Shown here: positions 13,509-30,964 of the stretch, piece after piece
Layout of the letters: the number at the start of each line of letters is the position of its first letter
Position numbering within the stretch: the first letter of the stretch is position 1
Position numbers and translations under genes: made by a program
Assembly: GCA_019637395.1 (NCBI GenBank)
Contig: JAHBVR010000002.1
Coordinates: forward strand, 257,495-321,494
Length of the DNA stretch: 64,000 nt
Source of the DNA: Vulcanimicrobiota bacterium
GTDB lineage: Bacteria; Vulcanimicrobiota; Xenobia; Xenobiales; JADMJV01
Direction of reading: 5' to 3'
Notes under the pieces: model-generated
What the model saw: the letters and a program-made list of their open reading frames with translations, nothing else
Told to the model about the DNA's origin: nothing
Databases searched by the model: none

Positions 13509-14408
13509 TTATTCCCCTTTGACCTGGTTTCGCCCGGCCCGCTTGGCTTCATAAAGTTGCGCGTCAGCCCGCTGGATCAGTTCACCGGGCGTATCTCCGA
13601 CTTCCGGCGCCATGCAGGCCACGCCCAGGGAAAGAGTGACGTGAGAACCGACCGTGGATTTTTCGTGGGTCAGCTCCAGAGCGCGCACCCGTTCCAGCAG
13701 CTCGTTGGCCACGTGGACCGCTCCGCCCAGGTCGGTGTCGGGCAGGACGCAGGCGAACTCCTCGCCGCCGTAGCGGGCCACCGTCTCGGAGGGCCGGCGG
13801 GCCCCGCCGATCAAGGAACGCCCCACCGCGCGCAGGCACTCGTCGCCCTGGAGGTGACCGTAAAAATCGTTATAGGGCTTGAAGCAATCAATATCCATGA
13901 GAATGAGCGAAATCGGTGACTTGCGCCGAATGGCGCTGCGCCACTCGCGCTCCAAGGACTCATCAAAATGGCGCCGATTGGGGATGCCGGTCAGACCGTC
14001 GGTGGCCGCCTGGCTTTCGAGCATGTCGCGGTAGTGCTTGAGTTCCAGGTGGTTGCGCACGCGCGCCTTCACGATGGCCGGCGAAAAGGGTTTGGTAATG
14101 TAGTCGATGGCGCCGATTTCCAGCCCGAAGGCCTCGTCCGTTTCATCTTTCAGAGAAGTGATGAAAATCACGGGAATCTTAGCCGTCAGCGGATTGCTTT
14201 TCAATTGTTTGCAGACCTGATGGCCGTCCATCTCGGGCATGACCACGTCGGTCAAAATAATATCCGGGCGCTGGTTGACGGCGATGTCCAGTCCGTCGGC
14301 TCCCTTGGTGGCGAAGACGAAGCGGTAGTCGGGGCTCAGGATCTGGCCCAGCAGCTTCAGATTGGCCGGAGCATCGTCGATAGCCAGCACGGTGGATTTC
14401 TCGCTCAT
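13509..14408 (-). CDS. Response regulator with GGDEF diguanylate cyclase domain
   Basis: A 299-residue protein with an N-terminal receiver domain (acidic pair D11-D12, phospho-acceptor D54, K106) and a C-terminal GGDEF domain with the active-site signature GGEEF at 214-218. It should make cyclic di-GMP when phosphorylated. The product-inhibition I-site, normally RxxD five residues before the signature, reads Arg-Pro-Ser-Glu (205-208), so feedback inhibition may be altered. Its ATG overlaps the stop of the hybrid kinase gene by four bases, which makes that kinase the obvious partner. It ends six bases from the convergent VWA gene. Confidence 0.92.
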
Positions 14409-17400
14409 TTGGCCCCTTTCGCCTCGGAGGCCAACAAATCTTTGAGGGCTCGCAAGCTATTTTGGGCGGCCGAGAAGTCCAACCGGTCCATGTCGCGGGC
14501 CAGTTGGTCCACGTTCGGGTCCCAGGAACCGTTGCCCAGACTGGAGCGAAGCACTTCGAAGCGCTCGGTGGCCTCAAAGTCTTGCGCGGCCAGCAGACTT
14601 TCCAGTTCCACCAGCAGAGGGCCGACCTCCTCGGCCACCCGGGTCTCGGACGGCAGCGCGGGAAGATTCGCCAGCGCCGGCAAAACCACCGCCAGAGCGC
14701 GGCTCAGGCGCTCCACATCCGAACCACCGGCTTCCAGTTCGCCGGCGGCGGCGGCCACCTCGTCCATGCCTAAAGTGGCGGCCGTGCCCCGCAAAGTATG
14801 CATGGCGATGCGGCGTTCTTCGCCGCTGCCCATTTTGTCCACCACCTCGCGCCAGGTGGCCGCGAAATCCAGCAGCAAATTGCGCAGCAGGGCGACATTG
14901 CCGGACATTCGCCGCAGCGCGGCTTTCACATCGACTCCGGGAAGGTCCGGCCAATCCGGTATGATTTGCTCTTGGAGAAGCACAACTTTGGACGGGTCGA
15001 TCCAGCGCAGCAGGGTCGAGACCAGTTGAAAGGGCTCGATGGGTTTGGCCACATGGTCGTTCATGCCGGCAGCCAAACATTTCTGACGTTCCGACTCGAC
15101 GGCATGGGCGGTGACGGCGATGATGGGCAGGCTTAAGGACAGTTCCTTACGGATCAGCCCGGTGGCTTCGTAACCGCCCATAATGGGCATCTGTACGTCC
15201 ATCAACACGGCTGCGAAGTCCGAATCCTCCCGCAGTTTATCTACGGCGTGGAGTCCGCTCACCGCGATCTCGACGGTCGCACCCAGGCGCTCAAGGATTT
15301 CCCGAACCACCTGTTGATTGATGGCGTTGTCTTCAGCCACCAGGATGCGCACGCCCTGAAAGAGATCGCCGGAGAAGTCCTCCTCGGTCTTGGCCATGAT
15401 GGCGTTGCCGACCGGCGTGCCGCCGAAGGCGGCCACGATGTGGTCGAAAAGAATCGACGGGTTGACGGGCTTGAGGAGAAAGGCCTGCAGGCCCAGACTC
15501 TCGGCCTGAAAGCGAATCTCGTCGCGGCCGTCGCCGGTGACCACGAATATCACCGGTAGTTTAGGAACGTGGGAGTCGGACTTGATGCGCCGGGCCGTTT
15601 CCAACCCATCGAACTCGGGCATTTTCCAATCCAGCAAAACCAGGTCGTAGGGACGTTCTCCGGCTTCGCCGGCGCGAATCAATTCGGCCACGCCGGCCCG
15701 GCCGGAATCGGCGGTGGTGACCGCAAAACGCATGGCCAGCAGCTCTTCGCGCAAGGTATCGCGCGCGATTTCATTGTCGTCGACCACCAGCACGCGGATA
15801 TTTTCCATGCCCGGGGGCGGTAAAAATTGCCGTTCCTGGCCGCTGTGATCGAGCGCGAAGGGCAAAACAAAAGTGAAGGTGCTGCCCACGCCGGGGTGGC
15901 TGAGCACGGAAATTTCCCCGCCCATCAGTTCCACCAGTTGTTTGGAAATCGACAGGCCCAGGCCGGTTCCCCCATACTTGCGGCTGGTGGAGCCGTCCGC
16001 TTGCGTGAAGGCGGAGAAGATTTTGCTTACCTGCTCCTCGGTCATGCCGATGCCGGTATCGCGCACCACGAAGCGGAGCAGCCCGGAACCGGAGCCTTCC
16101 TCTTCCTCGGCGATGGAAACCACCACTTCGCCGTGCTCGGTGAATTTGACGGCGTTGCTGGCCAGGTTGAGGAGCACCTGGCCGAGGCGCAGCGGATCGC
16201 CCACCAGCGCCTGGGGAGTTCCTTTGGCCACTCGAAAAATCAGCTCCAGACCCTTCTCGTCGGCCTTGAGGGCCAGAATGTTGGAGACGTTTTCGATGAC
16301 CTGGCTGAGATGAAAGGGAATATTCTCCACGTCGAGCCGCCCGGCTTCGATTTTCGAGAAATCCAGGATGTCGTTGATCAGATTGAGCAGGTTGCGCGAG
16401 GAAGACTGAATTTTGACCAGGTAGTCATGCTGTTTAGGGGTTAAGTCGGTGCGCAGAGCCAGATGGCTGAGACCCAGGATGGCGTTCATGGGAGTGCGAA
16501 TCTCGTGGCTCATGTTGGCTAGAAATTCACCTTTAAGCGCGTTGGCCGACTCGGCCGCTTCTTTGGCTTCGGCCAGACCGGCGCGGGCCAGCTCACGATC
16601 GTGGATGATGATGGCCAGCATCAGACCGACGGTGGTCAGGGCGAACAGGTAGAACCACAGGTTCAGCATGTGGGCGTGGGCCGCTTCGCCCTTGAAAATG
16701 CCCAACTGCTGCGCTTTTCCAATCATGGCCTGAATGCCCGTACAGGTGCACACCAGCAGGGCTCCGTGGCGGCCGAAGCTGACCGCTGCCCAGGCGACCA
16801 GCAAAAACATCCAGTAATCGTGATTGTAGGAACCCAGAATGTCGTGAAACCAGTCCATGAAGATAGCCCCGCCGGCCAAAAAGGCAAGGCCGAAGCAGGC
16901 GATCGTCATGGGCAGACGCTGTTGGCTCAGCCAGCCCTGGGGCAGGCGGCGCCAGACCAGCAAGATGGGGGCCACCAGCACGATGCCCAGACAGTCTCCC
17001 TGCCACCATTCGAAAAATACCGTAGGAGCATGGATCGGCGCGCCTTTCATGACCAGGCCCGTGCTGCCGGTGAAAGCGCTGACCGAGGCGCTCAGGCAGC
17101 CGAGCAAGGCCAGCCAGAGGTAGTCTGAGGGCTGTTCCAGATCGCGATGGAAGCTTTTTCGGCGGCGCAGCAGCCAGGCTCCCAGCAGAGCCGACCCGGC
17201 TTTGCCCAGACCGACCCAGGTGGCCAGGGGGATCTTGGCGGGATGGAAGGTGAGGTCGTTCAGGGTGCCATCTAAAAAGCCCCCGAGCAGCACGGCCGGC
17301 CACAGGCGCATCCCTCCCATGACCAGGCCCGCCAGGGCCAGGCCGCTACAGGGCCAGATCAGGATCGGCAGGCTGCGATTGGCGAAAAAGCTCGTGACCA

Positions 17401-17473
17401 GCTGGCTCAACGCAAAGTAAGCCAGCGCCAAAGCCAAGAACTTGATAATTTCCCATGGCCTGCGCCCGATCAC
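14405..17473 (-). CDS. Hybrid sensor histidine kinase (MASE1, HisKA, two receivers, Hpt)
   Basis: A multidomain membrane kinase of about 1022 residues. From the N-terminus: a MASE1-type sensor with eight or so membrane helices (to about 290), a linker coil, HisKA with H323 in SHEIRT, HATPase_c with N440 and the DTGIGM and GGTGLGL boxes, receiver 1 (phospho-acceptor D615), receiver 2 (D759) and a C-terminal Hpt domain with H892 in [11 protein letters not shown]. This is a complete phosphorelay in one chain. The likely output is the coupled REC-GGDEF protein. The start is uncertain: GTG 17473 fits the family's N-terminus, but ATG 17554 or 17566 upstream are possible. Confidence 0.9.
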
Positions 17474-17528
17474 AAGGCCGAGGCTTCCACGCCCCAGGGG
17501 AAAACCCGTTCTCTGCGAACCCGACCGG

Positions 17529-18026
17529 GTGGAAAAAGACGATGCCACCTTCATGCGCCTGGCCATCGAATGGTCGCGGCGCGGCCTGGAAAGCGGCAAT
17601 GGGCCGGTGGGAGCGGTGATTGTGCGCAATGGCCTGATTTTAGGCGAGGGGCACAATCGCACCAGTGCCGATTTGGATGTGACCGCTCACGGCGAGATGG
17701 TGGCCATCCGCAACGGGGTCAGAAAGTCCGGGCGTCTGGACGGACTGGCCGGCGCCACCATTTACACCAACTGCCAGCCCTGTCCCATGTGCTATTCGGC
17801 CTGCCGCTGGGCGGGAATAACCCGAATCGTCTATGCCTTGAGTATCGAGGATACCTATGCCCTGGGAAAAGAACGGGGCTTCCTGGACGTGGAGCACTTT
17901 GCCGATCTGAGCAGGCCCCAGCGGGATCTTCCGCAGGTTCAAATCTTGCGCGCGGAAGCGATACCGGTGCTGGAAGAGTTTATTCTGAAATCAAGCCCAG
18001 TTCCCGGCGAATTCCCCGCAGGCTGA
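17529..18026 (+). CDS. Nucleoside/guanine deaminase-like zinc hydrolase
   Basis: A 165-residue cytidine-deaminase-fold protein. Zinc-site motifs are complete: His-Gly-Glu in [10 protein letters not shown] (zinc ligand and proton-shuttling Glu) and PCPMC (two Cys ligands). The overall pattern, with [10 protein letters not shown] before and a C-terminal helix, fits guanine deaminase or related nucleobase deaminases more than TadA. The start is probably GTG 17529; ATG 17553 is an alternative. The gene diverges from the hybrid kinase, and its 3' end overlaps the convergent unknown gene by 47 bases. The exact substrate cannot be told. Confidence 0.8.
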
Positions 18027-24778: not shown

Positions 24779-25837
24779 ATGCCCCTATGGAAGGCCCTGG
24801 ACCAACAGGTAGAACGCGCGGTCCTGCGCAATTTGAGCGAGCGCGAACACTTTATGCTGCGTTGCGGCATGGGGCTGGTGATGCTGTTCGCGGTGCTCGG
24901 TTCCTATCTTTACCCGGCCGCGGCCGCTCAGTTGCTCTTTATGCAGTTGGCCATGCTCACCTTTTTCTTTGGCCTGCGTGCCGGCGGCGCCTGGACGGTG
25001 CCCACCTGGCTGCTCTACTGCGGCTGCGTAGGGGGGGGCTTCGAACGGGGCTTGTTTAGCTTTTTCTGTATCTACGCGCTTTTGATCACCGGCGTGACGG
25101 TGCACAAGTTCCGCCAGGCCAAACGGCAGCAACTGCAACTGGAGTCGGCGCTCGATATGGCTCGCCAGGTCCAAATCAGCCTGCAGCCCCCCGGGCTGGT
25201 TGATTTTGGATATGCCCAACTGGCCTGCCAGATCGAGATGGCCAAGGAACTGGGGGGGGATTTTGTGTGCCACCAGGCTACCGCGCGCGGGCACTTCATT
25301 CTTATCGGGGACGTCATGGGTAAGGGAGCGCAGGCTGCCCTGACGGCCGCTTACGTCAAGGGTCTGTTTGACGAACTGGCCCGGACCGTGGAGGACCCTC
25401 AGGTGCTGCTGATGGTTTTGCACGAACATCTGGTGGAGAGGACGGTGGTGGATTCTTTCCTGGCCGCCACCTGTGTTCTGCTCGACCGCGAGGATGGCTG
25501 CTGGCGCATCTGCCGGGCCGGGCTACCGGCGGCCGGAGTGGTGCGCACCGATGGCTCTTGCGCCTGCGTCGGCGATCCGGGAATCATGTTAGGCATTCCC
25601 GTCACCCCCAGCCTGGCCACCTGCCAGGTTGCCTATCAACCCGGCGATCAGTTTTTTCTGGCCAGTGACGGTCTGTGTGAAGAAGAACACCTGCCTTCGG
25701 AAGTGGTCAACGCGCTGGTCCGTTCCTCGGCCCGCCCCCCGGAACAGGCCCTGCGTCACTGTGTGACCACCCTGCGCAACACCACCTGTGTCGGCGCCGA
25801 GGACGACAAAACGGCAGTCCTGGTTCGCTGGGTCTGA
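24779..25837 (+). CDS. Membrane-bound PP2C (SpoIIE-type) serine phosphatase
   Basis: A 352-residue protein. The first 120 residues hold about three membrane helices; a coiled linker (KRQQLQLESALDMARQVQ) joins them to a SpoIIE/RsbU-like PP2C domain. Metal-binding Asp residues are in ELGGDFVC, IGDVMGKG, ASDGLCEE and EDDKTAVLV, so the active site is complete. Enzymes of this kind dephosphorylate anti-anti-sigma factors in partner-switching pathways. No anti-sigma or STAS gene is in view. I use ATG 24779; the frame is open upstream. It leads the operon that continues with the ThyX-like gene seven bases downstream. Confidence 0.85.
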   Translation: MPLWKALDQQVERAVLRNLSEREHFMLRCGMGLVMLFAVLGSYLYPAAAAQLLFMQLAMLTFFFGLRAGGAWTVPTWLLYCGCVGGGFERGLFSFFCIYALLITGVTVHKFRQAKRQQLQLESALDMARQVQISLQPPGLVDFGYAQLACQIEMAKELGGDFVCHQATARGHFILIGDVMGKGAQAALTAAYVKGLFDELARTVEDPQVLLMVLHEHLVERTVVDSFLAATCVLLDREDGCWRICRAGLPAAGVVRTDGSCACVGDPGIMLGIPVTPSLATCQVAYQPGDQFFLASDGLCEEEHLPSEVVNALVRSSARPPEQALRHCVTTLRNTTCVGAEDDKTAVLVRWV

Positions 25838-25844
25838 ACGACCG

Positions 25845-26570
25845 ATGGGCCTGACGCTACGCCAACAAATGATTCGGGCCGTCGAGATTGCCGGGGGGGA
25901 AGTGCTGCTCGAGCGTTTCGTCACCAAACCAGGGGTCTTTCTTTGTGAGGAACCCGGTAGACCTTCGGCCCGACTTCGGGACCTGGCCCGTCATTGGCGG
26001 ATGGATCCGGAGGCTTCGTCGTTCCAAATGCTGGCCGAGTCGTCCGCCATCCTGACTTATATGAATCCCGACTCCCGCACGACAACGGGAGCCGAATACG
26101 TGCAGGGAATCCTGGAGCGAGGTCACTCCTCGATCGCCGGCCAGACCTTCGTCAGCCTGGGGCTCTTCGGCATTCCTCTGGAAATCGTCATCGAATTGCT
26201 CTCCCACGGACTGGACTCCACGGCGCGCCTGACCAGTAGCAATGTCAAAGCCATGGACGACCCGCTCTTCTGCGTCTTTGGCCCCCATCGGGAGCAGCAG
26301 ATCGAAAGGTTGGAGAAAATACTGGCGCTCTACTGGCCGCTCCCGCATCGCGAGGTGAGCAATAGTCTGTGGCCGAGCAATCGGGCCGTGTTTCTCATGA
26401 TGGGCATGCGCTTGATCGACTGGCAGAAGCTGTTGGACAAACGCCTGCCCAAAGCCGGAAACGAAGCGGCGCTGCGCTTCGTATGCCAGCACATCGCCAG
26501 GGTTTTGCGCGGAGTGGAGGACTATCGCCGGGTTATCCCGGAGCCCGAGGACGTCGATCCGTGGGAGTGA
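25845..26570 (+). CDS. ThyX-fold protein lacking the RHR motif
   Basis: A 241-residue protein that aligns in register with flavin-dependent thymidylate synthase ThyX: GH.S at 93-96, then a hydrophobic strand and GIPLEIVIELL (109-119), and a C-terminal segment (MRLIDWQ, AGNEAALRFVCQHIARVL) like the ThyX NAR/AQWEIR region. However the ThyX signature Arg-His-Arg is Ser-His-Gly here (120-122), followed by LDSTARLTSSN. So it probably does not methylate dUMP in the usual way. It is sandwiched between the PP2C gene and the Ham1/Nudix fusion, whose start overlaps its stop. Homology is inferred by eye; a profile search would test it. Confidence 0.65.
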   Translation: MGLTLRQQMIRAVEIAGGEVLLERFVTKPGVFLCEEPGRPSARLRDLARHWRMDPEASSFQMLAESSAILTYMNPDSRTTTGAEYVQGILERGHSSIAGQTFVSLGLFGIPLEIVIELLSHGLDSTARLTSSNVKAMDDPLFCVFGPHREQQIERLEKILALYWPLPHREVSNSLWPSNRAVFLMMGMRLIDWQKLLDKRLPKAGNEAALRFVCQHIARVLRGVEDYRRVIPEPEDVDPWE

Positions 26571-28669
26571 GAAAAGTCGCGCTGATCACCCAGAACGCCC
26601 GCAAGGCCGAGGAATGGACGCTCCTGTTGCGCCCACAGGGAATCAGCGTCGCCCAGATCTTGCCTGATTCTGACTCTCCAGAGCAACTGCTGAATCAGGG
26701 ATTCGATCTGGTCTGCCGAGAGCAATCGAGCCTGGTGGAGCCGGGTGGAGACCAGTTGGCGGATATGGAGCATCTGCTCACGGTGGACCATCTGTGTATC
26801 ATCGAGAGCTGGCACCGTGACAAGGGGCAGCGTAGTTTTCGCGCTCGCCGTTCCGGATATATCGACGCAACGCGACCACTGGAAGCGGGAGGCTGGTGGG
26901 ATGCACAGTTTTGTGATGCCGGCACGGGGCTGAGCTATCAGGAGCAAGCCGTCTCTCGAGGAACAAAACTCTCGGCTCGCAGCGCTGCCATCGAACATCT
27001 GGTCGACGAGTTTTTGCCGGTGGCGCGGCGCGGGGCCTACCTGGAGGCCGATCAGCGCGTAGTCGCTCTGGAGCGATCTTTGATCGAGGTGGTCCGCTCG
27101 AACGATTGCTTTCAGTGTCTGAGTCCCGAGTTGGAGGGCCTGGTGGCGGGCGCGCTGAGCCAGGGCCTGGTCCTTTCTCTAGGCCAGACGCGGGCTCAAC
27201 AGGTGTATTTCTGGCCGGGTCTTTCGGGTATTCCTTCGGTAGCGCGCAGCAGTCCGGTCGATGAAGCCAAGTTTCTTTTTCATGACCTGGTGCATTTTCT
27301 GATCGGAAGATTAGTCCCGGACGGTCCGATGGATGAACATCAACGCCAGGTGTTCCTGGCCTGGGCTATGGTCGAGGAAGCTGTGGCGCTGCTCCTGGCC
27401 GATGGCTTCTTTGTAGACCATCTGAGGCGCCGCGGCTGGGACTATGACTTTGACCAGCACAAGGGCTATCCATTTTTCAGCGCCCAGGGCTGGAGAGATC
27501 AGTCCTTCGCACAGGACAAGTTGTGGGCCAATGTGCGCTTCTTTGTGCTCGGAGACCGCTCGGGCTGTCCCCATCCCGAGGATGAACGCGCCCTGCGCTA
27601 CTTTGAAGGGTTTGAGCGCTTTAGCCTGGGCGATTGGCTGTGGAATGAGCGGATGAGCTTGCACGCTCGCAAGGACTCGGAGTTTTACCGACGCTGGTGG
27701 GAGCTGGCCGAACCGCTCAATAGCCGGCATCGGTTGGGTGTCCTCAACTTGAGCGCCGCCGCCGCCTCCATTCCGCCGGGTGGGCCTCTGGAACTGGTGC
27801 GCGGAGTCTTTGACTATATTTGGAAGCATCGGATTCAACCAGCTCAGGGGACCCTCTCGTCGCTCTCCCGTAGCGATGAACGGGCCAAAGCCGGTTGGCG
27901 TTGGTTGCTCGGACAACTGGGGCTTTTCGCGGCTTTTCCCGAAGATCCGGCTCTGCAGCGAGCCGCCCGATTGTTGAAAGAGGCCGAACGTTTCGAGACC
28001 GTGCCTCGGTTCTTCCAGCAGTGCCTGAACACCGCCGTGCAGCACGGTTTGTGCAGCTCCCACCAGGCGCGGCGGTGGGGTGAGTTCTTTCCGCTATTCC
28101 CGCCCTTTTACATCAGCTACAAAGAACGCCCCGGACTGACCGTGGCCGCCCTGTCCGAGCGGATTCTGGGGCCGGAGGGCGGCGCCAAGGAATTGGAAAA
28201 CGAATTGGATGTCGTCAACGCCATCATTTGCGATCGCTCCCGCCAACGTTTTTTGTTGGAGCGTAAGGTCAATCACCCCATCGCTCTATTTGATCGGAGA
28301 TTCTGCTTAATCGGAGGCTACCGCCAGCATCCCGCCGAGACCATGGTCAACGCCTGGCGACGCGAAGCTTGCGAAGAATGGACCGACGCCGAGTCTCTCC
28401 AGGTGGCTCAGCAGCTGGCTGACCGCCTGGTTCCCTGGCGCCGTTTTCTGGTGCAGGGAGCGGAACGGCCGGGGGAGTTCGGAATGGAAATCATGCTGGT
28501 GGAGCTGGCCGAGGAAGAATTTGACCGGGTGGCCGAGGTGTTACAACGCAACAATAGCTACGCCAATCGCCCGGAGGGATGGCCGGAGGTCAAGCGGCGC
28601 GACGAAATTCCCGATCTGCTCCTGCTCTCCGGCCATGCAGTGGTGCTCTCGGCCTTTCTAGAGAGGTAA
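26561..28669 (+). CDS. Ham1/ITPase-like, HDxxH and Nudix three-domain fusion protein
   Basis: A 702-residue soluble protein with an architecture I do not know from any described family. Residues 3-153 resemble Ham1/RdgB inosine triphosphatases: TQNARK (10-15), GYID, GGWWDAQF and LSARSAAI match, but the acidic DDSGL site reads EQSSL. Residues 230-300 contain HDLVH (241-245) and EH (259-260), and two acidic residues at 272-273, a possible metal site. Residues 565-690 are a Nudix domain whose box reads E593, then REACEE (601-606), with one extra residue before the first Glu. GTG 26561 overlaps the ThyX-like stop; GTG 26567 is an alternative. Confidence 0.7.
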   Translation: MGVRKVALITQNARKAEEWTLLLRPQGISVAQILPDSDSPEQLLNQGFDLVCREQSSLVEPGGDQLADMEHLLTVDHLCIIESWHRDKGQRSFRARRSGYIDATRPLEAGGWWDAQFCDAGTGLSYQEQAVSRGTKLSARSAAIEHLVDEFLPVARRGAYLEADQRVVALERSLIEVVRSNDCFQCLSPELEGLVAGALSQGLVLSLGQTRAQQVYFWPGLSGIPSVARSSPVDEAKFLFHDLVHFLIGRLVPDGPMDEHQRQVFLAWAMVEEAVALLLADGFFVDHLRRRGWDYDFDQHKGYPFFSAQGWRDQSFAQDKLWANVRFFVLGDRSGCPHPEDERALRYFEGFERFSLGDWLWNERMSLHARKDSEFYRRWWELAEPLNSRHRLGVLNLSAAAASIPPGGPLELVRGVFDYIWKHRIQPAQGTLSSLSRSDERAKAGWRWLLGQLGLFAAFPEDPALQRAARLLKEAERFETVPRFFQQCLNTAVQHGLCSSHQARRWGEFFPLFPPFYISYKERPGLTVAALSERILGPEGGAKELENELDVVNAIICDRSRQRFLLERKVNHPIALFDRRFCLIGGYRQHPAETMVNAWRREACEEWTDAESLQVAQQLADRLVPWRRFLVQGAERPGEFGMEIMLVELAEEEFDRVAEVLQRNNSYANRPEGWPEVKRRDEIPDLLLLSGHAVVLSAFLER

Positions 28670-28700
28670 GACTCAGGCGTAACGAGAACTTGCCCCCACT

Positions 28701-29342
28701 TTGGTTCGAGTACTATTGGTTGACGACCACGATATGGTGCGGAATGCTCTGGCTAAGTTGCTGGAGGCGAATCCGGATATCGAAATTGTGGGCGGCGTGG
28801 ACAACGCCGAAAAGGGCTGGGAGTTACTGCGAACGCATGCGGTGGATGTGGTCATTTCCGATCTGGATTTGCCGGGTGAGAGCGGTCGCCAATTCGCTCT
28901 TAAGGTTCTGGAGCAGGAACCCTCGCAGGGAGTGATTATTCTATCGTATCGTGTGGAACCCGGCGAAGTCCAGTTCCTGGTCGAGGCCGGCGTCCGCGGT
29001 TACGTGCCCAAGTCCGCTCCCGCCGAGGAGCTGATTCAGGCCGTGCGGACGGTGGCCCAGGGGCACCATCATTTCGCGCCTCAGGCCGCCACCGCCCTGG
29101 CCGAATCAATGCGCAATCGCAACGGTGGTAAGCTGAACCCGCTCTCTCTGCGGCAAACTTTGATTTTGCAGCAGATGGCCAAAGGTCTGACCACCCGCGA
29201 GATCGCCGATCAGATGTCTCTTTCACCCAAGACAGTCGAGAAATACCGTAGCGAGATTTTGCGGCGGCTCAATTGTAAAAATCAGGTGCAGGCCCTGGAA
29301 GCGGGCCGCAGGCTGCAACTTCTTCAGGACGACGGAAACTGA
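28701..29342 (+). CDS. NarL/LuxR-family response regulator
   Basis: A 213-residue two-domain regulator. The receiver has the acidic pair DD at 8-9, phospho-acceptor Asp in ISDLDLPGE, and Lys in VPKSAP. The C-terminal LuxR-type helix-turn-helix is LTTREIADQMSLSPKTVEKYR. The only in-frame start downstream of the last stop is TTG 28701, close to the receiver's first strand. It lies 31 bases after the Ham1/Nudix gene on the same strand and is probably its operon mate. No sensor kinase is adjacent; the membrane phosphatase at the operon head could act in the same signal path. Confidence 0.85.
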   Translation: MVRVLLVDDHDMVRNALAKLLEANPDIEIVGGVDNAEKGWELLRTHAVDVVISDLDLPGESGRQFALKVLEQEPSQGVIILSYRVEPGEVQFLVEAGVRGYVPKSAPAEELIQAVRTVAQGHHHFAPQAATALAESMRNRNGGKLNPLSLRQTLILQQMAKGLTTREIADQMSLSPKTVEKYRSEILRRLNCKNQVQALEAGRRLQLLQDDGN

Positions 29343-30002: not shown

Positions 30003-30232
30003 TTAGATTAAAAAAATTTGGGCAGCCTATTAAGACCTGAGATCCCTCGGGCGGATGGGGGGAATTCCCCACCCCGTACCCCGGGGGCACCCTCCCGAGC
30101 CGAACCGGCTGAACGTGGCTGAGATGGAGTAGGGTTTTCCCTCCACTTCCCCCGACCGCGAGAGTGTTCCGAAGGCACGGCTAATACCAGGAGCGTGGCA
30201 AGCCCAACACGGGTATCGCGCCGGAGGTGATC
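30003..30232 (+). promoter_or_regulatory. Structured leader before the FliA-like sigma gene
   Basis: This 230-base stretch is full of inverted repeats on the + strand: AGCCG at 30098-30102 with CGGCT at 30106-30110; GGA..GGG at 30126-30134 with CCCTCC at 30139-30144; and a nine-pair stem of ATACC (30184-30188) and CGTG (30194-30197) against CACGGGTAT (30208-30216) that bulges the bases AGGAG at 30189-30193. The true ribosome site GGAGG (30223-30227) lies seven bases past that stem, five bases before the TTG start. It is a plausible 5' control element, but matches no riboswitch class I know. Confidence 0.45.
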
Positions 30233-30964
30233 TTGCAAACTACCATTCAAAACAAGCTCAGCTCGGGAGATAAGCAAGAGCTGGCCAACCATTATGCCGG
30301 CCTGGTCAAGCATATTGCCCTGCGTATGGCGGTGAAGCTGCCGAATCACATCGAGGTCGACGATCTGATCCACGACGGAGTGGTGGGTCTGATGGACGCT
30401 CTCCACCGTTTCGACCCGTCCAAGCACATCAAGTTTTCAACCTACGCGTCCACCCGGATCCGTGGGGCTATGCTGGATGCCCTGCGGGCGCTGGATTGGG
30501 CCAGCCGCGGGGCTCGCCGGCGCGGCCGAGAGCTCCAACTGGCCGAAGAGCAGTTAGCCCAGTCTTTGGGACGACAGCCCAGCCTGCAGGAGCTGGCCGC
30601 TTCCACCGGCCTGAGCCCCAGCCAGTTGCGCCGCCGCAGGGTGGAGCTGGCTTCCACCCAACTGGTTTCGTTGGATGATTCGCGTTCGACCAACGGCGAA
30701 TTCGAAGATACCCTCAGCGACTCGGTAGCCGATGAAAGCGCCTGCGTCGAGAGTCATTGTTTCCAGGCCGAGAAGAAGCAGATGCTGTTGCGCGCCCTGA
30801 AGACTTTGCGCGAACGCGACCAGCTCATTCTCAATCTCTATTACTTTGAAGAGTTGAACATTCGCGAAATCGGCGCCGCGCTCGGTGTCTCCGAGGCACG
30901 CATCTCCCAGTTGCATACCCGCGGCATTCGGCGTCTCAAAGAATTCCTGGAGCAGGCCGCCTAG
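30233..30964 (+). CDS. Sigma-28-like factor (FliA/WhiG type)
   Basis: A 243-residue sigma factor with regions 2, 3 and 4. Region 2 contains LIHDGVVGLMDALHRFD and FSTYASTRIRGAMLDALRALDW, the latter typical of FliA/WhiG; region 3 is a conserved LQELAASTGL block; region 4 ends with ALGVSEARISQLHTRGIRRL. I place the start at TTG 30233 because GGAGG lies five bases before it; GTG 30227 is inside the ribosome site. No flagellar or chemotaxis genes are in the window, so its regulon may be motility elsewhere or another late developmental set. Its stop overlaps the convergent regulator's stop at CTAG 30961-30964. Confidence 0.88.
   Translation: MQTTIQNKLSSGDKQELANHYAGLVKHIALRMAVKLPNHIEVDDLIHDGVVGLMDALHRFDPSKHIKFSTYASTRIRGAMLDALRALDWASRGARRRGRELQLAEEQLAQSLGRQPSLQELAASTGLSPSQLRRRRVELASTQLVSLDDSRSTNGEFEDTLSDSVADESACVESHCFQAEKKQMLLRALKTLRERDQLILNLYYFEELNIREIGAALGVSEARISQLHTRGIRRLKEFLEQAA

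Follow-up and report, generated by a model that had tools for sequence, protein, structure and literature searches.

Four genes that run in one direction between positions 24779 and 29342 of a 64-kb stretch of DNA (the window) raise the question of whether their close spacing marks a functional set, and of what the two middle genes, P2 and P3, might contribute to it. A sequence-only reading had joined a membrane phosphatase, a ThyX-like protein, a Ham1/Nudix fusion, and a response regulator in a single operon with a proposed role in nucleotide metabolism or signaling. The genome that contains the window is denoted G000 and is from Candidatus Eremiobacterota; G002 is another genome of the same genus, and G003 and G004 are genomes of relatives.

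Organization of the Locus

The proposed gene order was borne out. All four open reading frames lie on the + strand and are separated by 7 bases, an overlap, and 31 bases. The first gene, P1 (24779–25837, +), begins with ATG at 24779, has its stop at 25837, and encodes a membrane-anchored SpoIIE/PP2C phosphatase with a hydrophobic N-terminal third (PF07228, E = 6e-28). P2 (25845–26570, +) begins with ATG at 25845, 7 bases after P1, has its stop at 26570, and encodes a divergent ThyX-family protein of 241 amino acids that lacks the RHR and SxRY signature. The GTG start of P3 (26567–28669, +) at 26567 is part of a GTGA sequence in which the two genes overlap by 4 bases at the stop of P2. The 700-residue product is a fusion of a Ham1-like domain, a helical region of unknown family, and a Nudix domain. 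After a further 31 bases, a TTG start opens the gene for a NarL/GerE-type response regulator (28701–29342, +; PF00072, E = 4e-21; PF00196, E = 3e-17). The labels given earlier to the phosphatase and the regulator are thus correct, as both are clear members of their families. No terminator-like site was found in any of the three junctions, and this result, together with the spacing, makes a single transcript for the four genes plausible.

The neighbors of the P2/P3 cluster include RecQ, a DNA glycosylase, sigma factors, and signaling proteins. Just downstream (30227–30964) the window encodes a sigma factor in which regions 2, 3, and 4 are all present, and a 1085-residue hybrid histidine kinase with a MASE1 sensor and two receiver domains is encoded on the minus strand at 14405–17662.

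Domain Architecture of P3

The N-terminal domain of P3 (residues 1–150; 26567–27016, +) is Ham1/RdgB-like, an assignment that is supported by PF01725, TIGR00042, Foldseek, and an alignment with the RdgB of the genus itself but that remains sub-threshold. The match to PF01725 has an E value of 4.6e-4 and, at 20.6 bits, falls short of the cut-off of 22.5; that to TIGR00042 (E = 0.0047) also falls under its cut-off. ITPase/Ham1 chains occupy the first 18 ranks of a Foldseek search with the P3 model, though the model itself is poor. Relative to the RdgB of the genus, the domain is trimmed. The TxNxxK start, the GG..D element, and the late strand/helix pattern align, whereas the segments FxENAxxKA and PGxYSAR are missing, DDSGL is replaced by EQSSL, and SHRG by SARS, and TxNxxK is the only one of the three motifs TxNxxK, DDSGL, and SHRG to be kept. 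P3 also differs from RdgB/Ham1 proteins in the fusion of this domain to two others. A separate, normal RdgB is encoded elsewhere in the window genome. A narrow RdgB profile built from seven near genomes was uninformative for P3.

The C-terminal part of P3 (28067–28669, +) is a Nudix domain. The consensus of the Nudix box is GX5EX7REUXEEXGU. In the last 200 residues of P3 the E-x7-RE-x2-EE catalytic helix is intact in both the window and the G002 copy, but the loop before the first Glu is one residue longer than in the consensus and the G after EE is absent. The score against PF00293 is 15.2 bits for the window protein (E = 0.022) and 20.6 bits for the G002 copy (E = 4.7e-4), both below the gathering score of 21.1.

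The approximately 350 residues between these domains (27017–28066, +) are predicted to be mostly helical at low confidence and have no credible match in Pfam, NCBIfam, PHROGs, or PDB sequences. An HDLVH sequence of the HDxxH type had suggested COQ4 (PF05019); this candidate was rejected, since it ranked 254 among shuffled sequences and gave an hhalign P value of 0.1 over 11 residues. A second ThyX domain or a relative of P2 was also considered for this region and gave no signal. The AlphaFold models of P2 and P3 are poor (mean pLDDT of 48 and 37), and the assignment of the active sites therefore relies on sequence alignment, with the use of the models limited to the Ham1 hint.

Remote Homology of P2 to ThyX

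No Pfam family, PF02511 included, matches P2. When the single P2 sequence was searched against all PDB chains, ThyX was the only family returned (best E = 0.0075), and ThyX again ranked first when a two-sequence P2 profile was used. The same profile, searched over 388 genomes, retrieved one protein outside the genus (E = 4.9e-5), a canonical ThyX with RHRHFSYSQLSQRY. In the reverse direction, the two P2 copies reached 18.0 and 15.8 bits with a profile of 12 diverse ThyX proteins, whereas the best of 5,000 shuffles reached 7.4 bits; the hhalign P value was 2e-6, and the global alignment covers the C-terminal part as well. The 12 proteins come mostly from Actinomycetota and their phages and were collected from the first ThyX match onward; the 388-genome search is independent of this set. 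A profile of ThyX proteins from Eremiobacterota alone did not score P2 above shuffles, so that the positive result needs more diverse ThyX proteins and the relationship must be remote. The sole family match of the G002 copy of P2 is TIGR02170 (NCBIfam thyX), with an E value of 0.11 and 12 bits against a cut-off of 87.9. These sequence comparisons establish P2 as a true but divergent homologue of ThyX that is similar over most of its length and scores below every curated cut-off. A match to P2 on a Mycobacterium plasmid (E = 0.6) was taken as chance, the protein being an unrelated-looking one of 363 residues. Foldseek with the P2 model returned noise only.

The three nucleotide-related folds named in the sequence-only reading (ThyX, Ham1/ITPase, and Nudix) are accordingly supported: homology to ThyX and similarity to Ham1 and Nudix were found by profile searches, although none of the three reaches a curated cut-off.

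Loss of the ThyX Signature from P2

The place of the ThyX signature RHRxxSxxxSxRY is taken in P2 by residues 118–133, LLSHGLDSTARLTSSN (26196–26243, +), as located by an alignment of ten proteins and by a gapless HMMER alignment. Several ThyX positions are kept in the ten-protein alignment, namely, H94 and S96 of GHxS, H121 of RHR, P177 (the Pro of LPN), and R200. In both P2 copies, RHR is changed to SHG (S120 and G122 for the two arginines), SxRY to TSSN (S132-N133 for R-Y), and the EH after GHxS to GQ. The RHR motif contacts FAD in the Mycobacterium tuberculosis enzyme (MtbFDTS), as do Ser71 and Arg190 (PMC6514825). The 24 residues from S96 to S120 in P2 match the spacing of Ser71 to Arg95 in MtbFDTS. 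The earlier reading had overlooked this loss of the signature, which speaks against thymidylate-type chemistry as such.

A standard ThyA is encoded in the window genome (E = 1.6e-124), and ThyA and RdgB are present in all seven near genomes. The cell consequently does not require flavin-dependent dTMP synthesis by P2, which probably does not act as its thymidylate synthase. The type of thymidylate synthase differs at the level of lineages: PF02511 matches ThyX in 115 of 147 Eremiobacterota genomes and in none of the 18 genomes of the class to which the window belongs, and the seven nearest genomes carry ThyA. A weakly scoring type of ThyX with the sequence FNTHRxxSRNSASSRA, which covers only profile positions of about 59–190, occurs in many Eremiobacterota (L083–L087, L091, and L092).

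A relative of ThyX that is free to change its role because ThyA is kept could belong to specialized metabolism. P2 would then be a ThyX paralogue with a new function, the C5 modification of an unusual pyrimidine nucleotide, and P3 would process the product. The precedent is PolB of polyoxin biosynthesis in Streptomyces, a neofunctionalized ThyX paralogue that has a different substrate and coexists with a separate thymidylate synthase (PMC5954106), and the intact Nudix catalytic helix of P3 is consistent with such a pathway. On the other side, the loss of both RHR arginines and of SxRY makes ThyX-type flavin chemistry of P2 doubtful, and no tailoring, transport, or resistance genes tied to the pair, and no nucleoside-antibiotic cluster, were recognized among the neighbors examined. 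We regard a role in specialized metabolism as unlikely, if worth keeping in mind.

Signaling Genes with and without P2 and P3

P2 and P3 are adjacent in 2 of 149 Eremiobacterota genomes, which are also 2 of the 5 genomes of the genus: the window genome and G002, which represents a different species. The spacing in G002 is the same, with a 7-base gap before P2 and an overlap between P2 and P3. The conserved adjacency that the sequence-only reading called for was thus found for P2 and P3 in one other species and in none of the remaining Eremiobacterota genomes searched.

The flanking signaling genes are distributed more widely. Orthologues of P1 have identities of 86% in G002, 78% in G003, and 58% in G004, the latter two without P2 and P3, and orthologues of the regulator are 89% identical in both G002 and G003. 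The gene order in G002 is RecQ, a small gene, PP2C, P2, P3, a histidine kinase, the regulator, and two sigma factor genes, the last two being shared with the window. In G003 the PP2C and regulator orthologues are 6.3 kb apart, and the interval holds flgF-flgG-flgA-flgH-flgI (named from the translations; L038, 4188–8013), a CheY-like gene, and a pair of histidine kinase genes, but neither P2 nor P3. The second of these kinases, HK2, precedes the regulator and matches the G002 kinase at 76–80%. The kinase gene is found upstream of the regulator at L040 1729–2369 in G002 and L038 9785–10435 in G003, and is absent from the clean 31-base junction of P3 and the regulator in the window (28670–28700, +). 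No part of the 64-kb window encodes an orthologue of HK2, and the regulator there is therefore without its adjacent kinase. The occurrence of PP2C and the regulator together without P2 and P3 in G003 identifies the pair as a variable element of the cluster; either the arrival of P2 and P3 or the departure of the flagellar genes may account for the difference between G003 and the carriers. Genes for two-component and PP2C signaling are very abundant in the seven genomes G000–G006, with 31–62 matches to the regulator and 3–11 to PP2C per genome.

These comparisons speak against the claim that the four genes form a functional set. One four-gene system for nucleotide signaling or sanitation, with the phosphatase and the regulator in control, would explain why tight spacing is kept in both carriers. 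It would leave unexplained that the conserved PP2C and regulator of G003 enclose an entirely different set of genes, that G004 has the PP2C but lacks the pair, and that the kinase next to the regulator is missing in the window, and we consider it distinctly unlikely.

Mobile Elements and Selection

No homologue of P2 or P3 was detected in 50,697 phage records, in 72,556 plasmid records, or in the viral contigs scanned. A pattern scan of genome contigs returned G002 only, with two short peptide patterns that are insensitive to distant relatives, and the collections searched would miss such relatives in metagenomes. A match of P3 in G367 (19 bits, with three stops) was taken as chance.

The patchy distribution of P2 and P3 could be that of an anti-phage or stress module in which the Ham1-like domain senses a nonstandard nucleotide. 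KomB of the Kongming system, a nucleotide-responsive protein with a Ham1 fold, is activated by binding of dITP (PMC12948488), and KomBC chains are among the Foldseek Ham1 matches of P3. Those matches come from a model of low confidence and reflect only its Ham1 fold, which is also where the likeness to KomB ends. No KomA or KomC partner is next to P3, where the identified neighbors have other functions, no recognizable effector such as a SIR2 NADase adjoins the pair, comparison with the PADLOC models gave no match to either protein, and the phage and plasmid records hold no homologue. A module of this type is quite improbable.

The orthologues of the four genes in the window and G002 have dN values of 0.06–0.18, with 0.12 for P2 and 0.17–0.18 for P3, and dS values above 2, at which synonymous sites are saturated; all four are thus genuine coding sequences. 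The G002 copy of P3 is divided between two contigs, neither of which covers about six of its residues. Because dN is far below the saturated dS, P2 and P3 are maintained, the changed motif residues included, and both are under strong purifying selection. That they are remnant genes drifting toward loss, as the missing ThyX and Ham1 signature residues might suggest, is hardly credible given these dN values, frames that are unbroken in the window and in as much of G002 as its contigs cover, and changed residues that both species share.

Proposed Role of P2 and P3

The reading that we favor, tentatively and at somewhat less than even chances, is that P2 and P3 form a lineage-specific two-gene nucleotide-handling module inside a signaling cluster of PP2C, histidine kinase, and response regulator that also occurs where they are absent. 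Confidence is modest because there are two carriers, one probable origin, and evidence drawn from sequence. That P2 and P3 occur jointly is itself weak evidence of their working together, as two sequences are involved and one gain event suffices. The pair is probably cotranscribed with the older signaling genes without being functionally bound to them. The Nudix domain of P3 is predicted to be the working hydrolase of the pair and would cleave a compound of the nucleoside diphosphate type, and the ThyX-like and Ham1-like folds may have been repurposed to bind, or to act differently on, a nonstandard and probably pyrimidine nucleotide. The place of the pair between PP2C and the regulator in both carriers could reflect regulation; the wider neighborhood is syntenic too. 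A bolder version, in which the pair both produces and degrades a modified pyrimidine nucleotide that is not yet described and serves as a signal, with new chemistry by P2, reading by the Ham1-like domain, removal by the Nudix domain, and a response by the PP2C and regulator of the same transcript, is very unlikely.

At this locus, tight gene spacing alone failed to identify a functional set. No paper on ThyX, Nudix, and HAM1 together was found in the literature searched, and no description was found of the Ham1-like/helical/Nudix architecture, of which a 350-residue stretch matches no library. PolB is the sole precedent found for such repurposing of ThyX, and a ThyX relative that is without the FAD motif yet strongly selected would show a fold turned to another task.
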